From positions 1-20,445 of IMG/VR virus record IMGVR_UViG_3300028388_002543: a stretch of 20,445 nucleotides of DNA; one strand, given 5' to 3'. Both the position numbers and the translations under genes were made by a program. The stretch comes from a virus. The notes below the pieces were generated by a model that saw nothing but the letters and a program-made list of their open reading frames with translations, made no database searches and was not told the DNA's origin. Each line of letters opens with the position of its first letter. The stretch's first letter is position 1. Of this stretch, positions 2,668 to 20,092 are shown one piece after another.

Positions 2668-4563
2668 GTGATGCCGGCCACAGCGTTCCCGGTGCTCGTG
2701 CAGAAGAACGAGCAGACAGGTCGGTGGGAGAAGAAGCCAGCGGTCTCTGGGTGGCAGCACAGCACCCAGAAGGCGAGCGAGATCCGCACGCCCAACATCG
2801 GCTTCAACGTGCCCAACAACCGCATCATCGTCGACGTGGACCTGCACAAAAACCCCAACGTCAAGGATGAGATCCGCGAGAAGTTCGGCATTGTCTGCAA
2901 TGAGGAGTCGCTGCTGCAGCGCACGATCAGCGGCGGCGAGCATCACGCATTCGCTGTCGACCCAGACTTCGAGTATGTGCAGGGATCTGATCTTGGTGGC
3001 GTCATAGGCTTCGACACACGATGCGCCGGCCGCGGCTGGATCTGCAGCGGTGAGGGCTATGACCTGCAGTGTGATGCGATCGATGCCCGCATGGATCACT
3101 TCACGATCCCAGAGCTGCCAGCGTCCGCGCTGGCACTGCTGGCCAAGAGCCCTGAGACCAGCACCGTCCGTGAGACTCAGCCGGCGCCGGAGCCCGCAAA
3201 GCTTCGCAATCTCGACATGGACGAGCTGCGCGATGCGCTCATGCACATCGACGACGACTCATATGAGATGTGGTACAGGATAGGCGGGGCGCTTCACAGC
3301 GTGCCCAGTGGATTCCTGCTGTTCGATGAATGGTCCCAGCTCAGCCCCAAGTACAATGCCAAAGACGTGGAGAAAAAGTGGTATCAGACATCAGACATCA
3401 CGGGAGTGAATGTCGAGACAATATTCTACCACGCTCGTGAATGCGGGTGGCGTCCAGAGCGAACTGAAATTGACGGATATAGCGATTCTGACTTCGATGG
3501 CGAGGTGCAGGGTGGCGTCACAGGCTCTCAGAAGACTCTGGAGCCATTTCGCTACGAGTCTAGTGGGTATGTAAGGCTCCCGCGTTTCTGCCTTGAGGGG
3601 CTTATTCAGGAGGGTCTGGTGGCGTTTGCGGGCCAGAGCGGTCTGGGCAAGACACTGACCATTGTCCCTATGGCTGTGGCGGCTACCGGCCTGTTCCCGA
3701 GCTATCACGCGCAGCCACTGATGCCTAAGACGGTTCACTACTTCGCGGAAGATCCATTGCAGGTCGAGCGCTGCCTGCGGGCCATGTCTGATGACGGCCT
3801 GATAACGCTGGACGATACGTTCAGGGAGCGGTTCGTGCTGCATGAGGCCAAGCGCCGGTCTGAGCGCAAGTGGGCGGCAATTGGCCAGATGGATCTGGGT
3901 GAGAACCCGCTGGTGGTCATGGACACAGTGAGCGCCAACTGCGACATCGAGAACGAGAACGACGCCACGGCCGTGGGCAGGCTGCTGTTCGCTCTCAGGC
4001 AGCGTGTCAGGTGCAGTATCTGGCTCATAGGGCATATCGCCAAGGCTCAGATAAACAGCGAGCAGGTCACCATGCGCGGCTCTGGCGCTTTCGGGGCTGA
4101 TGCCCAGCAAGCGATAACGCTGACCATCAACCAGCACTCAGAACGTCTCCTGCAGATCAACAAGCACCGCTACGAGCCAGTAGACTACGGCACATCCACT
4201 TCCTACCAGATCACGACGCACACCGTGGCACTGCAGGGGGTCGATGAGCTGGGACAGATTCGGGATGTCACTGGGCGCTACAACCTGATCGAGCCAGATG
4301 ACCCAGAGGCGCGTGAGGCTGCCCGGGAGATGGATGCCGCTGAGCGCGCAGAAGAAACCCGCAGGCGAACCGAGAACACACTTGAGGGCCGGGTGAGTGA
4401 TGCGCTCCAAGAGCACGGTCCAATGAAGAAGTCTCACCTGATGAATACCTGCAGGGGACAGCGGCAGATTCTGGGGGTCGTTATTGATCGTATGGTGCGC
4501 GATGGGACGCTCATCAAAGACGACGACGGCTATATTCGGTCGGCCCAAAATGCCCCGTTTTAG
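2668..4563 (+). CDS. Primase-polymerase/helicase fusion protein
   Basis: A 631-aa replication protein. The N-terminal part (about residues 1-150) looks like a bifunctional primase/polymerase domain: catalytic D56-x-D58 in VDVDLHKN, then SGGEHH (about 89-93). A PriCT-like helical domain follows (about 185-260: LRDALMHI...WYRIGGALH...KKWYQ). The C-terminal half is a RecA/RepA-type ATPase: Walker A GQSGLGKT (322-329), Walker B LVVMD (415-419), IGH (454-456) and an arginine-containing RGSGAFGADAQQ segment (470-481). A winged-helix-like tail (about 575-625) ends the protein. It probably primes and unwinds phage DNA. The start is the GTG at 2668 or the ATG at 2671, right after the repressor stop with GGTGGGG upstream, so the two are probably coupled. 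The inverted-repeat cluster starting at 4565 lies at its 3' end. Confidence 0.88.
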   Translation: MMPATAFPVLVQKNEQTGRWEKKPAVSGWQHSTQKASEIRTPNIGFNVPNNRIIVDVDLHKNPNVKDEIREKFGIVCNEESLLQRTISGGEHHAFAVDPDFEYVQGSDLGGVIGFDTRCAGRGWICSGEGYDLQCDAIDARMDHFTIPELPASALALLAKSPETSTVRETQPAPEPAKLRNLDMDELRDALMHIDDDSYEMWYRIGGALHSVPSGFLLFDEWSQLSPKYNAKDVEKKWYQTSDITGVNVETIFYHARECGWRPERTEIDGYSDSDFDGEVQGGVTGSQKTLEPFRYESSGYVRLPRFCLEGLIQEGLVAFAGQSGLGKTLTIVPMAVAATGLFPSYHAQPLMPKTVHYFAEDPLQVERCLRAMSDDGLITLDDTFRERFVLHEAKRRSERKWAAIGQMDLGENPLVVMDTVSANCDIENENDATAVGRLLFALRQRVRCSIWLIGHIAKAQINSEQVTMRGSGAFGADAQQAITLTINQHSERLLQINKHRYEPVDYGTSTSYQITTHTVALQGVDELGQIRDVTGRYNLIEPDDPEAREAAREMDAAERAEETRRRTENTLEGRVSDALQEHGPMKKSHLMNTCRGQRQILGVVIDRMVRDGTLIKDDDGYIRSAQNAPF

Positions 4564-6949: not shown

Positions 6950-9144
6950 TCTACGACTACGACGACCTGAATGCAGTGATCAAACTGCAGCGTGACAACG
7001 AGGGCTATGTGCGCGATATGCGGCGCCAGTCCAAGGAAGCCATTGATTTTGTCACCAAGCGCGATGGGCAGTGGGAGCCGTCCATCATCCAGAAGTTTAA
7101 AGGCCGACCGCGATACACCGATGACCGCGTCAACCCGATCATCAATCAGATGGTTGGCGAGCTGTTTCAGGCTGAGTTTACTGGGCGGGTACGACCAGCC
7201 GGTGGAGGCGCTACGCAGGAAACGGCAAAGGCGCTTGATGGTCTTGTTCGTACCATACGCAACAAGTCTCACTTCAACCGGATCATCAATCAGACCGGCA
7301 GGCGGGTAGCCATCTGCGGTATTGGCGGCTGGGAGATCGTCAAGGACTACGCCAGCCCCGACAGTTTTGATATGGATCTGATGATCCAGCCCATTGAGGA
7401 TTTCCATGAGCGAGTGCTGATTGATCCCAACTCGATGAGTCCGGTGGGCGAGGATGCCCAGTGGTCAATCGTGAAGCACTATATCGGCAAGAAGGCGTTT
7501 TCCGAGAAGTTTGGCGAGGACAAGAAGGTGTGCAGTCTGGGCCATGATGACTGGTCTGACTCGTACTACTACAAGCCCGACAACGTGACGGTCGGGCAGA
7601 TCTACTACCTGAAGCCGCGCAAAAAAGAGATGGTGCTGATGAGCAACGGCGCCGTCTATGAGGCGAACGATGATTTAGACAAGGTCATCGATGAGCTGGA
7701 AATGGCAGGCATCACCGAGGTATCACGGCGCGAGGCCGATGACTTTGTCTGCGTGCAGCGATGGTACTCAGCCGACGAGTGGCTGACCGACGAGGAGGTG
7801 CTTGATTTCAACTTCATCCCCGTCATCCCAGTCTACGGCAACTTCGAGGTGACCGAGGGCAAAGTCATCTACTTCGGTGCGGTCGAGCGGCTGATGGACA
7901 TTCAGCGCGTCCACAACTATGCGTTCACTCGCAACGTCGAGGAGGTGGCGCTCAGCCCACGATCTAAGTGGTTCATGACAGCCGAGCAGGTGGCAGGGTA
8001 CGAGGCGAAGATCCGAACCCTGAACACCAACATGGATCCGGTTCAGCTCTACAACCATGTGCCCGACCAGCCGCCACCCTTCTACAGCGACACCAGCTCT
8101 GCCAGTCAATCCCTGAGCAACCTGATCGCGCTGACCGATGATGGCATTGCCAAGGCGTCTGGGATCTTTGCGGCGAACATCGGGGACAACCCGAACGTGC
8201 AGTCAGGCGTGGCGATTCAGGAGCAGATTGATCGTGGCAACAATGGCACGGCATGGTTGTTTGAGTGTCTTGAGCAGTCTATCGAGTACACCTGCAAGCT
8301 CCTGCTACGCGCCATCCCCAAGACATATGACGGCACTCGCGAGGTGGTGCTGACGCAGGACGATGGCTCATTGCAGACCAAGATGATCAACGAGCCCGTG
8401 GTCGATCAGCAGACGCAGGAAACCATTTACCTGTACGACGTGACGCAGGGCCAGTACGACGTGACCATCGACATTGGCGCCGGGTACAAAAACAGGCAGC
8501 AGGAGGCGGTCGAGGCGTTCGAGCGGCTAGCCCAGATTGACCCGGCGCTCATGGAGCTGGGCAGGGATATCCACCTAAACAATCTCGAAGCGCCGAACAT
8601 GGATCTGGTTGCCCAGCGAGCACGCCAGATGATGCTGAATCAGGGCGCCATCCCAGAAGACCAGATGACCGAGGAGGAGCTGCAGATCATGCAGCAGCAG
8701 CAGGCCGCCCAGCAGGGGCAGCCCGCACCGCCTGATCCCCAGATGATCGCGCTGGAGATCGAGCAGATGAAGGCGCAGACGGCGATGATGGATCAGCAAA
8801 ATCGCCAGCAAGACTCCCAGCTACAGGCGCAGAAGCTGCAGGTTGATGCCCAGCTCAAGCAGATGGAGCTGGAAGAAAAGCGACGAATGACCGAGATCAA
8901 GATCGCTGAGCTGGAGGCCAAGCTATCTGCCGAGCAGCGCAAGTCGGAGATCGAGGGCATGACGCAGGCAGGCAAGCTTGATATCGAGCAGCAGAAGCTT
9001 GATCAGAGCATGATGAAGATGATGAACGAGATGGCGCTCAAGATGGCGGACATGGAAGCGAGGTACGCTCAGGATATGAACGCGGCAGTGGCGGACAATA
9101 AGAACGTCCTGCGCTTTGACCCAGCCACCGGCACGATCGGCTAA
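6946..9144 (+). CDS. Portal protein, P22 gp1-like
   Basis: A 732-aa portal subunit, close to the 725 residues of P22 gp1. Twelve copies would form the ring through which DNA enters and leaves the head. The N-terminal region (RRQSKEAIDFVTKRDGQW, then RPRYTDDRVNPIINQMVGE) is typical of P22-type portals, as is the DDGIAKASGIFAANIGDN segment in the core. The C-terminal part (about residues 585-710) is a long Gln/Met/Glu-rich coiled coil, like the extended helical barrel of P22. The ATG overlaps the large terminase stop, and its own stop overlaps the next ATG (TAATG at 9142-9146). In P22 the scaffold gene comes next; here two accessory genes intervene. The assignment is firm. Confidence 0.92.
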   Translation: MIYDYDDLNAVIKLQRDNEGYVRDMRRQSKEAIDFVTKRDGQWEPSIIQKFKGRPRYTDDRVNPIINQMVGELFQAEFTGRVRPAGGGATQETAKALDGLVRTIRNKSHFNRIINQTGRRVAICGIGGWEIVKDYASPDSFDMDLMIQPIEDFHERVLIDPNSMSPVGEDAQWSIVKHYIGKKAFSEKFGEDKKVCSLGHDDWSDSYYYKPDNVTVGQIYYLKPRKKEMVLMSNGAVYEANDDLDKVIDELEMAGITEVSRREADDFVCVQRWYSADEWLTDEEVLDFNFIPVIPVYGNFEVTEGKVIYFGAVERLMDIQRVHNYAFTRNVEEVALSPRSKWFMTAEQVAGYEAKIRTLNTNMDPVQLYNHVPDQPPPFYSDTSSASQSLSNLIALTDDGIAKASGIFAANIGDNPNVQSGVAIQEQIDRGNNGTAWLFECLEQSIEYTCKLLLRAIPKTYDGTREVVLTQDDGSLQTKMINEPVVDQQTQETIYLYDVTQGQYDVTIDIGAGYKNRQQEAVEAFERLAQIDPALMELGRDIHLNNLEAPNMDLVAQRARQMMLNQGAIPEDQMTEEELQIMQQQQAAQQGQPAPPDPQMIALEIEQMKAQTAMMDQQNRQQDSQLQAQKLQVDAQLKQMELEEKRRMTEIKIAELEAKLSAEQRKSEIEGMTQAGKLDIEQQKLDQSMMKMMNEMALKMADMEARYAQDMNAAVADNKNVLRFDPATGTIG

Positions 9145-10310
9145 TGCAGCGCGTACAGGTCGGCAACGATATCGTCGAGTTCCCCGACGAGACCAACGAG
9201 GGAGAGATGCTCGGGGCGCTGCGGCGTCAATTCATGAAGACCCCGTCGGTTGAGAATACGGTCGGACGCTTAGAGGCGCTTGGATCAGTCGCATCGGCCG
9301 CACTTGCCGAGCCGATCTCGGGCATTCTCTCGCTGCCAGCACTGGCAATTGAGGGCGGTGGGGTGGACGCTGCTGTGCGCGCTCAGGAGGCGATTCAGGA
9401 GGCGCTGACATACGTCCCAAGAACCGAGCAGGGCATGCGGGATCTGCAGGATGTGGCCAATCTGCTTGAGCCTGTGGCGCAGGCGTTCGAGATGACCAGC
9501 AAGGGTGCTGGCGACTACGTCATGGAGAAGACTGGGAACCCTGAGCTGGCAGCTGCGGCCTATACCGCACCAACTGCGTTCTTGGAGCTGCTGGGAGTCG
9601 GCGCTGCTCGCAAGGCGGCTAAGGCTGGCGGGTTTGAGACACAGGGAATACCCAGCCAGCGGTTTGGGCAGGCCGGAGAGACTGGCCGGGTCACGCGAGA
9701 AGATCCCACGATCGCCCGGCTAGAGGCCGAGGGCAAGGTTGCCCAGCGCAGCCCAGACAACGAGATCCCCGACGGGAAGTACATCGAGACGAATGTGCCG
9801 GAGCCGGTGCGTCGTCAGATTGTGGCCGACGAAAAGACTACTCCGCAGCAGGAGCTGGCAGGCGAGCGCAGGGAGTCAGACAAGGGCTACCAGCAGATCG
9901 ACGAGATTGTCGGTGAGATGCCTGTGATCGACCCAGAGGTGCTGAAGGGCCGCACGGTTAAGGTCACGCTGGCTGACCTGACTGGCGCCGGCAGAGCGTT
10001 CGAAGGGACCGAGGGCGTTGAGACCATTCCGATCGAGCTGCAGGGCGGACCAGAGTTCCCTCGGCTAAAGTCGTATTTAGAAAACAACATTGTTTGGGCG
10101 GCTCAGGATGAGGGCGCCATATCTCGATTGCAGGACGGCGATGTCGTTTTGGTCTCAGCGATGATGCCGGACAGTCATGCGTCGAATGCGACCGTGGCGA
10201 CCTCATTCCTATCGATGCTCGGCAAGTTCGCCGAGGAGGGCCGCATCAGCCCTGAAAACCTCGAAAAGTTCAAGCAGAAGGGCGCTGCCCCAGCCCGTGC
10301 CGATGACTGA
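9144..10310 (+). CDS. Polyvalent-protein-type accessory protein, upstream half
   Basis: A 388-aa protein. An acidic N-terminus (RVQVGNDIVEFPDETNEGEM) is followed by an Ala/Gly-rich helical region (about residues 45-160) with moderately hydrophobic stretches. After a charged linker, a conserved-looking C-terminal domain (about 265-380) includes KVTLADLTGAGRAFEG, LQGGPEFPRL and VSAMMPDSHASNATVATSFL. I have seen this type of domain in long phage polyvalent proteins that are packaged or injected, but I cannot name a reaction. The ATG overlaps the portal stop, and the 3' end overlaps the next gene by eight bases, so the two are coupled. The hydrophobic Ala/Gly region would fit a protein that enters or crosses membranes during DNA ejection, which is inference. 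It may form one functional unit with the next gene, split into two reading frames. Confidence 0.6.
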   Translation: MQRVQVGNDIVEFPDETNEGEMLGALRRQFMKTPSVENTVGRLEALGSVASAALAEPISGILSLPALAIEGGGVDAAVRAQEAIQEALTYVPRTEQGMRDLQDVANLLEPVAQAFEMTSKGAGDYVMEKTGNPELAAAAYTAPTAFLELLGVGAARKAAKAGGFETQGIPSQRFGQAGETGRVTREDPTIARLEAEGKVAQRSPDNEIPDGKYIETNVPEPVRRQIVADEKTTPQQELAGERRESDKGYQQIDEIVGEMPVIDPEVLKGRTVKVTLADLTGAGRAFEGTEGVETIPIELQGGPEFPRLKSYLENNIVWAAQDEGAISRLQDGDVVLVSAMMPDSHASNATVATSFLSMLGKFAEEGRISPENLEKFKQKGAAPARADD

Positions 10311-12423
10311 TTTCTTCCCTGAATTTATGGGGCGCAGGCGCAAGTCGGGCGGTCTGCCGCAGGGAGACTACCGTTCGCTGCAGGTCGGCCAGCCGCTTGA
10401 GATGGTGACCGATGATGTCATTGCAAACCTGCCAAGAGAGCGCGTGCCTGACGTTAAGAACCCGGCGCAGGCTCAGGCCGTCAATGCATTCCTTGAGGAT
10501 GACTGGCGTACCAGCAGCATGCTCAAAAAAGATGGCGGCGTGACACCGCTAGACTTCGTCAATGCGGTCAACAACAACAAGTACCGGCCAAGCCTAGACA
10601 TCACCAACGAGGCCGACGTCAAGGCTGATATCGACGCAGGCAACCTTGAGGTATACAAGCTTGGCGACCGGAATATCTTTTTCGGCATCAAGAACGGCGT
10701 CAACTACAACGACAACTACGGCATCGATCTCGAAGCTGCGGGCTTATCCCCCAACGAGAAGGTGGTCACCGGGCTGATCAACAACGAGCCGGGGATCTCT
10801 AGCGTTGCGGCGCCTGCGGCGATGATGAAAGCTATCGAAGAGGGCGTGACGGCGCTGGATGCGTTCGACGTTCGCACCGACAAATTCCCAAATGGTTTTC
10901 TACCTTCTATTTACAATGAGTATGGATTCGAGGAAGCTGCACGTCTGCCATTCAGCAAAGAAGAATACCTCAAGAACCACACCGAGGCTGATTTGAAGGA
11001 GCTGGAGCAGGCATGGCGATCAGATGGCTGGACGCCTGAGAATGGCTACCCTGATCTGGTGGTCATGAAGTGGACAGGAGATGACAATGCAAGAGCAACC
11101 TACAAGCAGCAGTGGCTCGATGACATTAGCAGAGGCGATGGCTCAGGCACTACTGCCGGAGCAACTCCAGAGTCTCTCGCAGACGCAGATTCAGTTGTTG
11201 AAGCGGCGCTTGGCACAGCTCAAAGACCGGGGGCAGATCAGCCCGCAGTCGGTGCTGGGGGAGTTCGAGATAGTAACCGAGCACCTGCTGCCAACAGATT
11301 CAGCAGAGCTGCAGCAGCCGTCAGCCAGTTCGACGCAAACCAGCGGCGCCGGTATGGAATCGATGACCGAACCCCAGAACAAATCGCCTATGAGCAGTCC
11401 ATCACCCCAGAGCACGCGGCTGCCACCCGAGCCCGAACGGAAGGCATCAGAAAGCGAGGAGGAGTGGGAGGAAAGGCGTGGGTTCTACCGGAACAGAGTG
11501 GGTCGCCTAAAGAATATGCGCGGGATGCGGCAGGCAACCTCAGAGGGCTCCCCCAAGTAGAGGGTTTCAATGCTCAGGCAAACGCCAGAATTGCCGATGT
11601 CGCTGCCAGATACATGGAGCGCGTCGGCCAGTCTAAATACACTCCAATTGCCACCTACGTCCCACCGAATCCCACCAAGGGCAAAGAGATTGCCCGGCTG
11701 TTCGATGAGATGGAGCACAACCCGCAAGATCCCGAGGTCAAGGCGGCTTATAACGCTCTGATCGAGGAGACGCTTGAGCAGTACGAAGAGATCCTCAAGA
11801 CCGGATTCAAGCCTGAGTTCATCGACTTCGAAACGATGGGTGACCCGTACCAAGAAAATCCCAGAATGGTCACCGAGGACATCGCCAACAACAACCATAT
11901 GTATGTCTTCAGCACCCGCGACGGGTTCGGATCGGATGCTGACTTCGATCCTGCCGACAACCCGCTGCTGCAGGAGACGGACTACATCATCAGCGGCCAG
12001 AAGGCGCTAGCCAACGACATTTTCCGCATCGTTCACGACTACTTCGGCCATGCCAAAGAAGGGCTTGGGTTCCGCGCTGGTGGCGAGGAGAACGCATGGC
12101 GATCGCACGCGGCAATGTATTCGCCATTGGCTCGACGGGCGCTCACGACCGAGACTCGTGGCCAGAACAGCTGGGTGAATTATGGGCCGAAAGGCGAGTC
12201 TAACCGCACAGCGTCGGCGGCCGACACGGTGTATGCTGACCAGAAAATTGGATTGTTGCCGACGTGGGTGTCAGAGTCGTTTGGCGACCCTGACGCGAAC
12301 AACAAGCGTATTCTGAAGAGCAAGTTCGATTACGAAATTGATTCGGGCAACAAGCCCAAAAAAGAGAAGGCCGGGAAAACCGGGAAAACCGGGAAAACCG
12401 GGAAAAACTACACAGTGGAGTAA
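10303..12423 (+). CDS. Polyvalent-protein-type accessory protein with HDYFGH domain
   Basis: A 706-aa protein in two folded parts. The N-terminal part (about residues 100-260) runs through VYKLGDRNIFFGIKNG, SSVAAPAAMMKAIEEGVTAL and GFLPSIYNEYGFEEAARLPF, and loosely resembles a GNAT-like acyltransferase fold. The C-terminal part (about 440-690) has the motif HDYFGH (578-583), then GFRAGGEENAWRSHAAMYS and TTETRGQNSWVNYGP; the His/Asp/Glu cluster suggests a metal or catalytic site, and this block recurs in large phage proteins. The Ala/Gly-rich linker between them (about 262-420) overlaps a nested gene (11087-11560) and has atypical codon use. The ATG at 10303 overlaps the previous stop; longer upstream frames only shadow that gene. 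The tail carries GKT repeats (12371-12406). It may be co-packaged and injected, or modify host targets; this is inference. Confidence 0.65.
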   Translation: MTDFFPEFMGRRRKSGGLPQGDYRSLQVGQPLEMVTDDVIANLPRERVPDVKNPAQAQAVNAFLEDDWRTSSMLKKDGGVTPLDFVNAVNNNKYRPSLDITNEADVKADIDAGNLEVYKLGDRNIFFGIKNGVNYNDNYGIDLEAAGLSPNEKVVTGLINNEPGISSVAAPAAMMKAIEEGVTALDAFDVRTDKFPNGFLPSIYNEYGFEEAARLPFSKEEYLKNHTEADLKELEQAWRSDGWTPENGYPDLVVMKWTGDDNARATYKQQWLDDISRGDGSGTTAGATPESLADADSVVEAALGTAQRPGADQPAVGAGGVRDSNRAPAANRFSRAAAAVSQFDANQRRRYGIDDRTPEQIAYEQSITPEHAAATRARTEGIRKRGGVGGKAWVLPEQSGSPKEYARDAAGNLRGLPQVEGFNAQANARIADVAARYMERVGQSKYTPIATYVPPNPTKGKEIARLFDEMEHNPQDPEVKAAYNALIEETLEQYEEILKTGFKPEFIDFETMGDPYQENPRMVTEDIANNNHMYVFSTRDGFGSDADFDPADNPLLQETDYIISGQKALANDIFRIVHDYFGHAKEGLGFRAGGEENAWRSHAAMYSPLARRALTTETRGQNSWVNYGPKGESNRTASAADTVYADQKIGLLPTWVSESFGDPDANNKRILKSKFDYEIDSGNKPKKEKAGKTGKTGKTGKNYTVE
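11087..11560 (+). CDS. Nested overlapping gene, 157-aa protein in the +1 frame
   Basis: A complete reading frame inside the gene at 10303-12423, shifted by one base. It starts at the ATG at 11087 with AGGAG six bases upstream (11076-11080), and ends at TAG 11558-11560. The first 77 codons have G or C at the third position in about 54 cases by hand count (70%), against about 30 of 76 (39%) for the containing frame over the same DNA; elsewhere the containing frame looks normal. The product has a helical N-terminal half (MTLAEAMAQALLPEQLQSLS, then QLLKRRLAQLKDRGQI), a Ser/Pro/Gln-rich middle and a charged SESEEEWEERRGFYRNRVGR tail. I do not recognise a function; the make-up suggests a small helical virion or scaffolding-associated protein. 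A frameshift product joined to the upstream domain is an alternative. Confidence 0.65.
   Translation: MQEQPTSSSGSMTLAEAMAQALLPEQLQSLSQTQIQLLKRRLAQLKDRGQISPQSVLGEFEIVTEHLLPTDSAELQQPSASSTQTSGAGMESMTEPQNKSPMSSPSPQSTRLPPEPERKASESEEEWEERRGFYRNRVGRLKNMRGMRQATSEGSPK
12371..12406 (+). repeat. Four perfect 9-bp tandem repeats (CCGGGAAAA)
   Basis: Four identical copies of CCGGGAAAA encode a run of Gly-Lys-Thr triplets in the basic tail of the upstream protein. Being a multiple of three, copy-number change would lengthen or shorten the tail without breaking the frame. Confidence 0.9.
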
Positions 12424-14927: not shown

Positions 14928-15386
14928 ATGGAAACAGCGGGAGATATCATTCGTGACGCTCTGACAGAGCTGACGATACAGGCTCAAGAACAAACCGTGC
15001 CCGCTGTTGACCTCAACACAGGCGTTCGGTATCTGAATCGCATGATGCAGGCGCTTGACGCTGAGGGCGTAAAACTCGGCTACACCCTAGTCAACTCCCC
15101 AAACGATCCGCTGACCGTCCCCGCAGGCGCCTATGAGGGCATGGTGTTCAACCTTGCCGTGCGACTGGCTAACGGGTTTGACGTCTCTATCGGTCCCGGG
15201 CTTGCTGCATCGGCAAGAGACGGCCGGAGCACGATGTATAAGCTTGGCATCAATCTCGGCGAGATGAATTTCCCCAGCATCCTCCCTATCGGCTCTGGCA
15301 ACGAGGGCAATGCGGAGCTGTACGAAGATCAGCACTTTTTCCCCGGTTGCTGTGAAGATCAGGACACTTGCGAGGAGACGGCATGA
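14928..15386 (+). CDS. P22 gp4-like tail accessory factor (head-tail adaptor)
   Basis: A 152-aa protein similar in size to P22 gp4 (166 aa) and with the family's look: GDIIRDALTELTIQAQEQTV, then NTGVRYLNRMMQALDAEGVK near the N-terminus and a middle GAYEGMVFNLAVRLA. In P22, gp4 binds the portal after packaging and begins closure of the head and tail assembly. The C-terminal end is Cys-rich (CCEDQDTC), which is unusual and might bind metal or form disulfides. AGAGGA precedes the ATG at 14928. The stop overlaps the next start (ATGA at 15383-15386). Confidence 0.82.
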   Translation: METAGDIIRDALTELTIQAQEQTVPAVDLNTGVRYLNRMMQALDAEGVKLGYTLVNSPNDPLTVPAGAYEGMVFNLAVRLANGFDVSIGPGLAASARDGRSTMYKLGINLGEMNFPSILPIGSGNEGNAELYEDQHFFPGCCEDQDTCEETA

Positions 15387-16966
15387 GCTGCCCAACGATT
15401 AAGAGGGCTTTTGAAGATAGCCTGAACAAGTCAACGCTCAACAATACTGATGAGTTCCTGACATACAGCAACGGTACTGTATACAACGTTACCTACGGTG
15501 ACATCGCAGTTCAGCTGGGTGTTACTGGATCTCTCAATTCTGTTGGGAACGGCGTTCAGATTCTGGCAGGGACGGCGCCGGATTATCAAATCAGGTCCAT
15601 TGAGGGCGGTAATGGCATTGCCGCCCAGCAGACCATTAACGGCAGCGTCATACTCAACTCGAACATCCAGAATTCAGGCAGCAACGATGATGGGCGGCCA
15701 GTTTTAGTCAACCCAAACGTCGACCCTATTCGACTGCGCCGGCTGAAGGCGGGATCTGGCATATCAATCACGCAGAGCGCCAACACGCTGACCATAGAAA
15801 ACACTCAGGCGACTGGCGGCATTGCCAGTAATCTGGTTGTGATCAGCAGCGTCGATGACTTTCCGACGGCGGTGTCCGGCGTTATCACTCTGGCCGACAA
15901 CACCGAATACCAGATCATCGCGAACATCACCACCAACAGTAGATTTGCCGTCGGATCTAGCACAGTGATATCTGGGCTTGACCCGTTTGTCACTCAGCTG
16001 ACTTACACCGGGACCGGGACAATGTTTACGTTTGCCAATGGCAACGCCGGGTTCAAAGATATTGCGCTGTCGGCGCCAAATGGTCAGTTTTTGGATGCGT
16101 CAGGCGTTATCGCCGGCACGCTGTTGTTCCGCTTCACTCGATGGGTGGAGATGAATGACCTTGGCGTTCTCGGCCATAGCAACACAGCTATAAACAACTC
16201 GTTTATGGTTCTGCACACAGGGCAGGGCTTTCAGTTCAACGCAAACGTCACGGCGGGGCGGCTCAACATATCCACACTGACAATTGCCAGCACCACGAGC
16301 GCAACGTCTACGTTCCTAGACCTCGGTACGTCGACGTTTTCTGCGCTCAGTATTATGAACGTCACGTTCCTGAATTCTACGGCCGGGCAGACCTTTTTGT
16401 CCGGCGCCGCGGGTGGCGCCAACATAACTACTGGCGAGATTGGATTTGTCAGCCGCGTGACCATTGAGGGCGACATGGCTGCGCTAGGCACGATCAGCGA
16501 GCTTGATTCTGGGTGGGACTTCAGCGACAACAATAAGACAAAAAATACCGCCCCCCATGCCGTCTATAGTCTCGACTCAGGATCTGTTACCACTATCTCA
16601 GCAGCTGGCACTCCGGTTCAAGTGAACGGCGCGTTCACTGTTTCGACTGAACAGATATACACGACATCAGCGGCTGGAACGGCTACATACAACGGGGTTC
16701 GAGCCAAGTTCGTCCGCATCGATATCACGATGTCGTTTGAGCCAGAGTCTGGGACTAACAAAAATTTGTTTGTTCAGATCGCCGTTAACGGAACCGTCAT
16801 ACCTGAGACCAAAATCGTCAGGACTTCTAGCTCAGGCAGCGCGGCAGTTGTCTCTGTTGACTGGGCTGTTGTGCTCAACACGACAGACAGCGTATCTGTC
16901 TTCGTCGGTAACGATACAGACACAACCAACGTCCTCGTAAACCAGCTGCTAGTTCGGGCTTCTTGA
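15383..16966 (+). CDS. Fibre/spike-like beta-structured virion protein
   Basis: A 527-aa protein rich in Thr, Ser, Asn, Gly and Val with the rhythm of phage fibres and appendages. The N-terminus (SCPTIKRAFEDSLNKSTLNN) may attach to the virion. The middle (about residues 140-380) has repeated short strands, such as FMVLHTGQGFQFNAN and TFLDLGTSTFSAL, consistent with a beta-helix or beta-sandwich. The last 130 residues look like a trimeric jelly-roll tip (VRIDITMSFEP, VDWAVVLNTTDSVSVFV). The ATG at 15383 has GGAG upstream and overlaps the gp4-like stop; an in-frame start at 15368 has no ribosome site. Its stop overlaps the gp10-like ATG. No enzyme motif is visible. Receptor binding or head decoration are both possible. 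Confidence 0.6.
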   Translation: MSCPTIKRAFEDSLNKSTLNNTDEFLTYSNGTVYNVTYGDIAVQLGVTGSLNSVGNGVQILAGTAPDYQIRSIEGGNGIAAQQTINGSVILNSNIQNSGSNDDGRPVLVNPNVDPIRLRRLKAGSGISITQSANTLTIENTQATGGIASNLVVISSVDDFPTAVSGVITLADNTEYQIIANITTNSRFAVGSSTVISGLDPFVTQLTYTGTGTMFTFANGNAGFKDIALSAPNGQFLDASGVIAGTLLFRFTRWVEMNDLGVLGHSNTAINNSFMVLHTGQGFQFNANVTAGRLNISTLTIASTTSATSTFLDLGTSTFSALSIMNVTFLNSTAGQTFLSGAAGGANITTGEIGFVSRVTIEGDMAALGTISELDSGWDFSDNNKTKNTAPHAVYSLDSGSVTTISAAGTPVQVNGAFTVSTEQIYTTSAAGTATYNGVRAKFVRIDITMSFEPESGTNKNLFVQIAVNGTVIPETKIVRTSSSGSAAVVSVDWAVVLNTTDSVSVFVGNDTDTTNVLVNQLLVRAS

Positions 16967-18447
16967 TGAATCTCAGAGTCAACATCGGACAGGGTTTTTA
17001 TCAGTCAGACTCTGTGCCGTTCTCAAATCAGCGGTGCGTTAACCTGTATCCAAACGTCCCGCAGGCGCCATCAGTATCTGACACGTCTCTGTTTGGCACC
17101 GAGGGGTTGAAACAGATCGCGTCTGTCAGCACGAGGGTTAGCGAGGCGTGTCGAGGCGCGATTGAATTTCAGGGACAAGCCTTTTTTGTGCTCGGGAGCA
17201 GTCTGTATGAGGTGGAAAAGGTAACGCTCGCTACAGGCGGTGCAGACTACCGCACCAACTTCATTGGATTTGTTAACGGCGGCCTTGGCCGGGTCTCGAT
17301 GGCTGAAAATGGATCTCAGCTGTTGATCATTAACGACGAGGGCCGCGGATATATTTACCAGCCCAGCGCTTCCCCGGTATTCGGCGAGATTGCAGACGCA
17401 GGTTTTTACGCAAACGGAACGCCTCAGATCGCTGCCTATGTAGACAGGTATTTTTTGGTCACCACCGACCAGAAAAAAGTGATCATATCCGCGGTGGGCG
17501 ACGGCACTAATTGGAATGCAATTGATTTTGTGAGCGCGGAGGCTGACCCAGACGATGTGGTCAGCATTTTTATCCACAAAAACCAGCCGTATCTGCTTGG
17601 GTCGAAAACGACTGAGCAGCTGCAGAACATTGGCGGTGCAGGCGTGCCATTCCGCAGGGTCAACGGGTTTGTGGTTCCTGTTGGCTGCACAGCGCCGTTC
17701 AGCGTGGTCAATGTCGGCGAGGTAGTTTACTGGGTCGGCAGGGGGAATAATCAGAAGGCGGCGGTCTGGGCGTTCAATGGGGGTAGCCCGCAACGCATAA
17801 GCACAACTGCAATTGATAACGCGCTGAACAGCCTGCCAAACAGCTGCCTGTGCGGTATTTTCTCGTTTTCATACTCTCAGCACGGCCAGCAGTTTGTTCA
17901 CTTCACGGCGAGCAACGTGACGTTTGTGTTTAATCCGCAGACAGGTCGCTGGCATGAGCGAGAAAGCCAGTTCACTGACAACGCCGGGCAGAGAACGACA
18001 GAACCATGCCGAATATCTGCCGTCGTCGATACGTTTAATGAGCTGATTGTTGGCGACAGAAAAGACGGTCGCATTGGCATTATCGACGAGGATGTTTATA
18101 CCGAGTACGGGGAGCCGATTCTCAGCTACTTCACGACTCAGCCGCTGTATATGAATAGCAACAGCTTCACCCTGCCGCAGATTGAGCTTGTCTGCGAAAC
18201 TGGAGTTGGAAACCCTGATTGCCTAGATCCAAAAGTGCGGCTTGAGATCAGCAGAGACGGCGCGCAATTTGAAAATCCGAGGACCAGACAGCTCGGCGCC
18301 TCTGGCAACAGATCAATCCGCCCGACGTGGTATAAGAACGGCAGGGTGAGCGCTTTAGCGGTGCTCAAGGTAAGCATATCTGACCCGGTAAAGCGGGCAA
18401 TTTACGCCATTGATCTGAAGCTAAAAACGACCGGGGGTATGACATGA
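16966..18447 (+). CDS. P22 gp10-like packaged-DNA stabilisation protein
   Basis: A 493-aa tail-hub protein close in length to P22 gp10 (472 aa). The N-terminus GFYQSDSVPFSNQRCVNLYP is typical of the family, as is the beta-propeller-like body with LGSKTTEQLQNIGGAGVPFR, GEVVYWVGRG and IDNALN. In P22, gp10 joins gp4 below the portal, plugs the exit and provides the site for the tail needle and spikes. The ATG at 16966 overlaps the previous stop (TGATG); a TTG three bases upstream is not needed. The stop overlaps the next start (ATGA at 18444-18447). Confidence 0.88.
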   Translation: MNLRVNIGQGFYQSDSVPFSNQRCVNLYPNVPQAPSVSDTSLFGTEGLKQIASVSTRVSEACRGAIEFQGQAFFVLGSSLYEVEKVTLATGGADYRTNFIGFVNGGLGRVSMAENGSQLLIINDEGRGYIYQPSASPVFGEIADAGFYANGTPQIAAYVDRYFLVTTDQKKVIISAVGDGTNWNAIDFVSAEADPDDVVSIFIHKNQPYLLGSKTTEQLQNIGGAGVPFRRVNGFVVPVGCTAPFSVVNVGEVVYWVGRGNNQKAAVWAFNGGSPQRISTTAIDNALNSLPNSCLCGIFSFSYSQHGQQFVHFTASNVTFVFNPQTGRWHERESQFTDNAGQRTTEPCRISAVVDTFNELIVGDRKDGRIGIIDEDVYTEYGEPILSYFTTQPLYMNSNSFTLPQIELVCETGVGNPDCLDPKVRLEISRDGAQFENPRTRQLGASGNRSIRPTWYKNGRVSALAVLKVSISDPVKRAIYAIDLKLKTTGGMT

Positions 18448-18701
18448 CAAAAATACTCCCGCCGCCATTCACCCGGGCAATCATTGACCAAAACGGCATG
18501 CTGACCGAGGAGAGTCGCGTTTACTTTTCGGATCTTGCGAACAGAATACCAAGCTATGGATCAGGGTCGCCGGAGGGCGTCGTTGAGGCTGATTTGGGCG
18601 CAACTTATTACGATATTGCCGCTGTCGCCGGCAGCAGGACGTATATCAAGATCAGTCAGGATATCGGCGGCGACAGGTCGCAAGGATGGGAGTTAGCGTG
18701 A
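18444..18701 (+). CDS. Hypothetical 85-aa tail-region protein
   Basis: Small proteins of this kind, opening with a PPPFTRAIID-type stretch and a hydrophilic LTEESRVYF segment, are common beside tail genes in podovirus-type phages, but I cannot give a function. The C-terminal half is Gly/Ala/Ile-rich with possible short strands (YYDIAAVAGSRTYIKI). Its start overlaps the gp10-like stop and its stop overlaps the GTG of the next gene, so it is embedded in the virion operon. The P22 needle gene (26) would lie here, but this protein is much shorter and lacks a coiled coil, so I do not equate them. Confidence 0.65.
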   Translation: MTKILPPPFTRAIIDQNGMLTEESRVYFSDLANRIPSYGSGSPEGVVEADLGATYYDIAAVAGSRTYIKISQDIGGDRSQGWELA

Positions 18702-19525
18702 GCCAAGAGATCATTGCCATGATGAACGAGATCAGCGTTCCTGACGTGCAGAAGCAGCGTCAGGGAATCGTTGCGCTGGAATCTGTCTTGATGGCAGCAG
18801 ATCAGGTCGAGATGCCGCCAGAGCAGCTGTTACACGGCGGCATGTACGTTCGGGCGGTTACCGTCCCGGCGGGGACGTTGCTGACCGGGAAGATCCATAA
18901 ATACGACCACATTGAAATTATGGCTAGCGGGCTGATTGCGGTCACCACCGACGACGGGAGCGCTCGCATTCTCGATGGTTTTAATGTCATGCCGGCGCTG
19001 ACCGGCAAAAAGCGTGCTGCATTTGCCATTGAGGAGACGGTATGGATCTCCGTGACGGCGGTAGGCGACACGGGCAGCCTGACGCCAGATGAAGTATCTG
19101 ACGCCATCACAGTAGATACATTCGACGACCTCGACGCCTTCTACTCGCAGATCAGCAATGCTGACTACCACCACTTTATTGCGTCTCAGGGCTGGACCGA
19201 GGAGCAGGTTCAGGAGATCGTCACCAACGAAGATGATCTCGATTTGGGCATCGATATTGAGGCGCTCGGGCTTAGGATTGACGACAGTCAAATACATGGC
19301 GTCGGCATGTTTACTGATCGCCCTATTGAAGAGGGCGAGAAAATCATGACGGCAAGAATAGGCGCCATGAGAACGCATGCCGGCCGGTATATAAATCACG
19401 CTGTCAGGGCCAACTCTCAGTTTGTTGTCACCGACGAAGGCGTTGACTGTGTCGCCACCAAGAAAATCTACGCGGGTGAGGAGATCACCACAAATTACCG
19501 GGCTCAGCCCGTGGAGGTTCAGTAA
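18698..19525 (+). CDS. Cupin-like/SET-domain fusion protein in the virion operon
   Basis: A 275-aa protein with two recognisable parts. Residues about 45-120 form a cupin-like beta-barrel seen in phage structural regions (MYVRAVTVPAGTLLTGKIHK, H67 and H71). Residues about 190-268 have the SET-domain pattern: IHGVGMF (199-205), GRYINH (229-234, holding the conserved N-H pair) and GEEITTNY (260-267). SET domains methylate lysines using S-adenosylmethionine; this one is short, lacks a clear inserted iSET region and may be minimal or non-catalytic. A linker (121-189) is acidic. I choose GTG 18698, with GGGAG five bases upstream and overlapping the previous stop, over the ATG at 18686. The target could be a virion or host protein; this is inference. 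Confidence 0.75.
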   Translation: MSQEIIAMMNEISVPDVQKQRQGIVALESVLMAADQVEMPPEQLLHGGMYVRAVTVPAGTLLTGKIHKYDHIEIMASGLIAVTTDDGSARILDGFNVMPALTGKKRAAFAIEETVWISVTAVGDTGSLTPDEVSDAITVDTFDDLDAFYSQISNADYHHFIASQGWTEEQVQEIVTNEDDLDLGIDIEALGLRIDDSQIHGVGMFTDRPIEEGEKIMTARIGAMRTHAGRYINHAVRANSQFVVTDEGVDCVATKKIYAGEEITTNYRAQPVEVQ

Positions 19526-20092
19526 ATGTCTAAGATAGCGGCTGCCGCTATTGGCGGATCTGTAGTTAGTGGGCTTTTTGGCGACAGGGCAAGCAAGCGA
19601 GCGGCGGAAACCGCCCAGCAGGGTCAGGAGGCGCAACTGGCGTATCTTGAGCGTCAGGGACAGCTCGCACGCGAGGAGACCGCCCCGCTCTACAATCAGG
19701 CAATGGATACCCGCAGGCAGGGCTCGCAGCGGCAGATTGATATGCTATCTGCCGCGGCGCCAATGGTGCTTGATGCTCGCCAGCAGGGGAATATGAACGC
19801 GCAAAACGTGCTGGCAGGCTCTATGCCGCAAATGCAAAACGCGCTGCTGGGCACTGGGCCAATCGATTACAGCTTCATGCAGCCGCGACAGGTCAATGTC
19901 GACCTGCAGGGATTGCTAGCCGGCATTCCTCAAGTCTACAACCAGCAACAACAGCAAGCCGCGCCAAACCCGGCGCCAGTCGCTCCGGTTTCAAATCCGA
20001 CAATGGTGAACCCGCTATCGGCTCCCAACTTCAGGTTCGGTAGTTTTAACTTCGGCGGCAATGACTTTCTTACAAACAGGAATTTGAGGTAA
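19526..20092 (+). CDS. Gln/Ala-rich probable internal virion or ejection protein
   Basis: A 188-aa protein beginning with a short Ala/Gly/Val-rich stretch (KIAAAAIGGSVVSGLFGD), then a helical Gln/Arg-rich segment (about residues 21-90), then a Gln/Pro/Asn-rich disordered tail (about 130-188) with a run of five Gln. The opening resembles the glycine-zipper N-termini of phage proteins that enter the cell envelope with the DNA, such as those of the P22 gp7/gp20/gp16 group, but direct similarity is not visible. The ATG at 19526 follows the previous stop by one codon's overlap-free junction, and the next gene starts four bases after the stop. The call is by composition and position. Confidence 0.55.
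   Translation: MSKIAAAAIGGSVVSGLFGDRASKRAAETAQQGQEAQLAYLERQGQLAREETAPLYNQAMDTRRQGSQRQIDMLSAAAPMVLDARQQGNMNAQNVLAGSMPQMQNALLGTGPIDYSFMQPRQVNVDLQGLLAGIPQVYNQQQQQAAPNPAPVAPVSNPTMVNPLSAPNFRFGSFNFGGNDFLTNRNLR

Follow-up and report, generated by a model that had tools for sequence, protein, structure and literature searches.

A compact SET domain on a cupin tail-slot protein: a candidate methyltransferase in the structural operons of phages

Introduction

SET methyltransferases have been studied mainly as chromatin enzymes. What, then, does a SET domain do among the virion genes of a phage? The question is raised by a fragment of a P22-like podophage, 20,445 bases long (the whole stretch of DNA analyzed here, hereafter the window), in which the genes run in the order terminase, portal, scaffold, coat, Ad3, Hc3, an 85-aa ORF, a cupin-SET gene, and an ejection protein gene. 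A preliminary description made from the sequence alone had placed the cupin-SET gene within the virion-morphogenesis operon, and P22-like structural genes are indeed found on both sides of it.

In a full-text search of the open-licence PMC literature, neither a cupin-SET or other SET tail protein nor protein methylation as a step in building or firing a phage particle was found described; one phage paper lists a ‘SET domain protein (ORF62)’ for Stenotrophomonas phage Ps15 (PMC9025141). The SET domain call itself is not new, because individual members already bear a SET label in database records. Uncultured Caudovirales SET proteins such as A0A6J5PTS6 are likewise annotated in phage, and GenBank MW202744, with the product name ‘pbcV-1 histone H3-lys 27 methyltransferase structure’, is the same cupin-SET fusion. 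These are record-level labels only, and the architecture, the slot, and the conservation were in no paper found. New here are the family-wide architecture, the genomic slots, the conservation, and a coupling of the SET domain with residue 3 of the next protein. The compact SET domain occurs in hundreds of phage contigs, under strong purifying selection, in podophage, SU10-like, and siphophage-type operons. As a tentative overall reading, we suggest an active SET methyltransferase of virion morphogenesis, with the next protein as its likeliest client. If this is true, protein methylation would be among the means by which phages assemble or discharge their particles.

Architecture of the cupin-SET protein

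The features of the gene and its neighbors in the window are as follows.
16963..18447 (+), head closure protein, Hc3 / P22 gp10-like (PHROG 578, 7.5e-96)
18444..18701 (+), 85-aa ORF directly upstream of the cupin-SET gene (ORF list, PHROG search)
18688..18692 (+), GGGAG, a likely ribosome-binding site, 5 bases 5′ of the GTG
18698..19525 (+), cupin-SET protein, 275 aa, GTG start (Pfam, PHROG, AlphaFold)
18803..19108 (+), cupin (double-stranded beta-helix) domain, aa 36-137 (predicted structure, structure matches)
19121..19222 (+), two linker helices, aa 142-163 and 168-175 (predicted structure)
19247..19504 (+), compact SET domain, aa 184-269 (Pfam, alignment, structure matches)
19295..19306 (+), HGVG, aa 200-203, which we take from the SET literature to be the GxG cofactor motif (sequence motif, conservation)
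19394..19399 (+), Asn233-His234 motif, in 126/126 distinct SET sequences, the motif being part of the search patterns
19496..19498 (+), Tyr267, the expected catalytic tyrosine, in 124/126, the remaining 2 rows ending earlier
19526..20092 (+), gp7/gp14-like ejection protein, the proposed client, joined by a TAA-ATG junction (PHROG 21132, 6e-4)

The GTG at 18698, which overlaps the 85-aa ORF by 4 bases, is a better start than the in-frame ATG at 18686, which has only AAGG, directly abutting it. The coordinates 18698-19525 given in the preliminary description are borne out, and so are its three SET motifs, IHGVGMF (I199-F205), GRYINH (G229-H234), and GEEITTNY (G260-Y267). The fusion of a SET domain with a cupin-like domain that it had read from these letters also holds, well beyond chance, with Pfam and PHROG matches and both folds in the predicted structure. 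The AlphaFold model of the whole protein, made with an alignment of 51 sequences, has a pLDDT of 92.5 and a pTM of 0.82. The linker helices accompany the SET domain even in standalone SET genes. PHROG 34170 matches the whole protein (3.9e-49) and is the same protein family; it stands in PHROGs without a function or a domain name, and the standalone SET proteins match its C-terminal part. The cupin-SET protein had no defence-family match in PADLOC and nothing over a cutoff in NCBIfam.

Elsewhere in the window, two ORFs that separate the portal and scaffold genes (388 and 748 aa; 9144-12423) have almost no family matches, the C-terminus of the 748-aa ORF matching the function-less family PHROG 3170 (1.4e-13). 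A 532-aa protein between Ad3 and Hc3 (15368-16966) has no Pfam match and resembles the tail fiber family PHROG 24754 at its C-terminus (8e-6). On the minus strand, a 126-aa protein (1649-2029) consists mostly of repeated ‘SLGTTYHN’-type units and matches no PHROG.

Relatives in phage genomes

Relatives were collected by scans of IMG/VR, in which 509/541 stretches were confirmed for the whole protein, 386/391 for SET, and 467/490 for cupin, the best 80 of 509, of 386, and of 467 being returned. The 277 collected sequences, which are loci, some sharing a contig, plus the window itself, comprise 183 fusions, 79 cupin-only and 14 SET-only sequences, and one case of adjacent separate genes. Four of the 79 cupin-only sequences are cut by the contig end (L212, L225, L228, and L254); L254 probably carries SET, because its cut falls inside the linker. 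L183 was classed as SET-only solely because its contig begins inside the gene. Nine loci come from bacterial assemblies, mostly MAGs. With the whole protein as query, tblastn matched 63 of 50,697 phage records, of which 8 records, representing five distinct phages, had a query coverage of at least 80%; the SET-only query found the same 8 records and no others. In the phage records examined, a cupin, alone or fused to SET, occupies a slot beside an ejection-type gene; the gene order is Hc3, an optional small ORF, cupin or cupin-SET, and ejection gene.

The SET domain and its catalytic residues

The SET assignment is supported by profile and structure alike. Pfam SET (PF00856) matches at 2.7e-8 with 34.6 bits, above the curated cutoff of 22.4; the best stretch is profile positions 60-104 of 105, the C-terminal half. 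Residues 184-269 superpose on MLL1 (7u5v) with Z 10.3 and an rmsd of 1.8 Å over 78 aligned residues at 35% identity, and on vSET (3kma) with Z 9.8 and an rmsd of 2.1 over 81. The linker and SET domain predicted alone have a pLDDT of 93.8, and the 50 listed PDB matches of this model are all SET-domain proteins (Z 9.1-10.4). Structure prediction, which the preliminary description had proposed along with the profile search, thus recovered the SET fold.

With MLL1/KMT2A, EZH2, SETD8, and PBCV-1 vSET, the phage domain has in common the fold and the order of GxG, RYxNH, and terminal Tyr. Unlike the MLL1-type enzymes and vSET, it has no post-SET zinc motif, is fused to a cupin, and lies in a phage tail operon. 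A nearly invariant R225-T226 ahead of GRYxNH, unlike known SET enzymes, marks the phage family. The core is very small, as noted before: the 84 residues 185-268 of the model align with a span of 122 residues in MLL1, and residues 186-267 with one of 105 in vSET, so that across these spans the phage SET lacks about 38 residues relative to MLL1 and 23 relative to vSET. The sequence alignment with MLL1 splits in two at the missing SET-I region. A SET-I insert and an aromatic lysine channel are typical of SET domains, though not universal. By alignment the SET-I insert is nearly absent here, and across the family the residue before D/N-Y is V/I/L/T, not Y/F. A lysine channel would have to be built otherwise, because SET-I is almost absent and the chain stops 8 residues beyond Tyr267, with no post-SET.

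The motifs GxG, (R)xxNH, and terminal Tyr are in order and conserved. S197, G203, T226, G229, R230, N233, H234, E262, and Y267 are invariant in the 81 distinct fusions of full length, which form 51 clusters at 80% identity. Among the 126 distinct SET sequences, N233 and H234 are each present in 126 and Y267 in 124; the two rows without Y267 are one at a contig end (L267) and one with an in-frame stop (L214). The fused ORF at 2890-3630 of L214 has its stop inside SET, near the contig edge, and is probably a counter-example through decay, or an assembly error. Since the scan patterns contain the GRYxNH motif, the rows found by cupin patterns were checked separately: Asn-His is present in 22/22 distinct fused rows, 9 of which were found by no other route, and in 5/5 of the phages found by tblastn. 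Loss of Asn-His and the terminal Tyr in relatives, which the preliminary description had regarded as speaking against its reading, was not found. In close pairs, the median dN/dS is 0.066 for SET (90 pairs, 0.016-0.186) and 0.038 for the cupin (77 pairs); the SET domain is under strong purifying selection.

Does such a reduced domain still catalyze? It might merely lengthen a cupin tail protein, with a structural or SAM-binding role, as its very small core without SET-I or post-SET would allow and as would agree with 79 of the 277 sequences looking cupin-only (4 of them cut by a contig end). A mere spacer would not need GxG, Asn-His, and Tyr, which are kept in essentially every sequence, and standalone SET genes exist. 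Because the catalytic residues are invariant and purifying selection is strong, a binding module alone is the less likely alternative, and we consider it improbable. An active methyltransferase is likely, because the SET fold, the conserved residues, and the selection all point that way.

The cupin domain

The best structure match of aa 36-137 is HP0902 (5j4g) with Z 11.2, and many others score about 10. Cupin-type PHROG 12032 matches aa 3-149 (3e-31) and PHROG 24280 aa 4-146 (3.4e-27). Metal-binding cupin enzymes carry HxH...E and H as metal ligands. This signature was not found in the 81 distinct relatives: H71 alone of the ligand set is kept (75/81), position 67 being Q/H/Y, 69 mostly F, and 73 mostly N. 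By profile match and by its slot before the ejection gene, the protein belongs with PHROG 12032, podophage short tail fiber. PHROG 12032 and 24280 (‘short tail fiber protein’ and ‘tail fiber adhesin’) have the cupin half and the genomic slot in common with it; their examples, in Thalassomonas phage BA3, Vibrio phage VvAW1, and Bordetella phage BPP-1 (bbp23), are all without SET, and the names are annotations rather than experimentally based functions. The record of Shewanella phage X14 labels a SET-less cupin homologue ‘Unknown function structural gene’, and a term search of the X14 paper gave no mention of mass spectrometry. The cupin on its own is a common podophage tail-slot protein.

Gain, loss, and genomic slots

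The SET domain was repeatedly gained or lost on the cupin. In a cupin-domain tree of 114 rows, with few columns and rough support values, SET presence changes at least 14 times (16 before L212, L225, L228, and L254 were dropped); the starred branches alone force 10 changes, counted before removal of the truncated rows. In L105, cupin and SET are separate adjacent genes with a four-base overlap.

Standalone SET genes and some fusions occupy other positions. In L167, L182, and L191, the standalone SET gene directly follows a 678- or 540-aa portal-type ORF, the family scan covering that of L167; the order in L167 is SU10_portal (1e-184), SET, a 90-aa ORF, scaffold, and SU10_MCP. In L137, L153, and L173, SET follows an ORF of about 775 aa, which in L173 matched no family. 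In L181, it lies downstream of Hc3, with no cupin detected within the locus. In L154, the genes run tape measure, distal tail, tail protein, cupin-SET, and central tail fibre J, and in L156 cupin-SET likewise directly precedes J, in a siphophage-type tail-tip operon (cupin-SET and J region, L154 2347-6023 and L156 716-4155). J in both loci begins with MSG and a Gly-rich hydrophobic stretch, resembling the podophage ejection proteins. More distant standalone SET genes are found in L003-L006, and the copy in L003 adjoins a ferredoxin gene. A small Cys-containing protein of 78 aa is encoded directly after the standalone SET gene in L137 (3258-3494) and L173 (3270-3506), and matches PHROG 13558 in L173.

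Because three separate structural-gene contexts are involved, we think a role of the SET protein in morphogenesis somewhat more likely than not. An active methyltransferase could instead aim at a host protein, either in the cytoplasm during infection or after being ejected with the internal proteins and acting early. Its position beside ejection genes would suit this, as would the distant SET of L003, which lies outside the head or vertex slot. A virion target fits better with the constant late structural-operon position in unrelated phage types and with the fusion to a tail-slot module, and no data suggest a host target, which we therefore regard as unlikely.

Coupling between SET and the start of the next protein

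The analysis covered the next gene, usually one for a gp14/gp7-like protein, in 247 loci. Its product mostly begins with MS-x, after which comes a hydrophobic stretch rich in Gly and Ala, however the protein continues, J included. Residue 3 is G/A/S in 105/111 distinct N-termini from loci with SET (SET+) vs 6/60 from loci without it (SET-). The remainder of the 111 comprises 4 bulky residues and 2 others, one of the latter probably from a mis-called start; L105 and L031 were left out of this count and of the following one. Among the thinned rows of the tree, residue 3 is small in 67/71 SET+ vs 6/30 SET-. Since the coupling holds inside both overlap classes, -12 (38/39 vs 0/10) and -3 (34/37 vs 4/11), reading-frame overlap is unlikely as its cause. 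Within one ejection-protein subfamily, the start is MSG in 3/3 SET+ loci and MSV in 35/36 SET- loci. For G3 only, once 12 of the 114 tree rows had been set aside because their next gene was unusable or excluded, the counts are 46/72 SET+ vs 4/30 SET- (Fisher p 2.7e-6, without phylogeny); the coupling is a post hoc observation, and the grouping into small and bulky was picked after the G3-only result. Of 7 supported pairs in a phylogeny-aware comparison, a mean of 2.8 agreed with the coupling, 0 ran against it, and 4.2 showed no difference, which is not significant in an underpowered comparison. The window's own next protein is an exception, with K3. A second candidate, A to T at position 6 of the next protein, was weak (35/72 SET+ vs 9/30 SET-, Fisher p 0.12) and was dropped.

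Two explanations of the coupling remain: either SET acts on or reads the N-terminus, or SET and the opening codons of the next gene travel as one unit in recombination. Between L021 and L015, the next genes diverge in roughly their first 28 codons and are nearly identical beyond. As only the start differs, this pattern suits recombination that carries SET and the first codons of the next gene, and such hitchhiking explains the pair equally well. No conserved lysine was seen by eye in the N-terminus of the next protein, and no lysine column of the cupin domain is confined to SET+ sequences; the single contrast is a K/R swap at cupin positions 105-106, where RK is the commoner pair with SET and KR the commoner one without it.

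Proposed function

The computed support consists of the two folds, the catalytic residues, purifying selection, gene position, the three contexts, and the residue-3 coupling. The preliminary description had named coat or tail proteins, or an injected or host protein, as candidate targets. The neighborhood points rather to the product of the next gene, gp14/gp7-like or J. In its size and its N-terminal Gly/Ala-rich hydrophobic start, the neighbor is similar to T7 gp14 and P22 gp7. According to excerpts of a review, gp14 is the first ejected protein and forms an outer-membrane pore, and methylation is not mentioned in that review (PMC8954989).

A mechanism may be proposed as follows. The cupin barrel would hold SET at the assembling tail vertex, where the SAM-dependent SET domain would methylate a phage protein. 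The likeliest client would be the product of the next gene, gp14/gp7-like, or J in siphophage-type operons, and the methylated site may lie in the N-terminal segment of that protein or be a residue that is offered along with the segment; ejection might be affected in turn. The cupin-SET protein probably modifies part of the virus's own injection machinery. Among single guesses at the client, the next protein has the best support, although we hold this guess with some reserve. The enzyme might instead methylate another vertex protein, namely the portal, Hc3, the adaptor, or the coat, as the standalone SET directly after the portal gene of SU10-like L167 might suggest. Residue coupling was sought, and seen, for the next protein alone, and we find this alternative rather doubtful.

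Carried further, the reading with the next protein as client would make the mini-SET a dedicated maturation enzyme, which reads the processed Ser-Gly-Ile/Val-Ala-Thr-type N-terminus of the gp14/gp7-like protein or J and places a methyl group on its terminal amine or on a residue close by, SET and the first residues of the client being inherited as a matched pair. We regard this as quite improbable; if true, the maturation of phage tails or ejectosomes would include a post-translational step carried out by a SET enzyme. With its matched start, the next protein offers a definite candidate substrate, and isolated SET+ phages exist in Pseudoalteromonas PH1 and Rhodoferax P26218.

A GNAT acetyltransferase gene (PF00583, 6.5e-7) abuts the cupin gene in BPP-1 (bbp24-bbp23; L010, 7468-8387), and the record of L114 annotates an acetyltransferase next to the cupin (3516-4426). 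Phage zth2-2 (L013, 6001-8000) has cupin-SET together with a relative of the BPP-1 GNAT. Lysine-modifying enzymes may recur beside the cupin.
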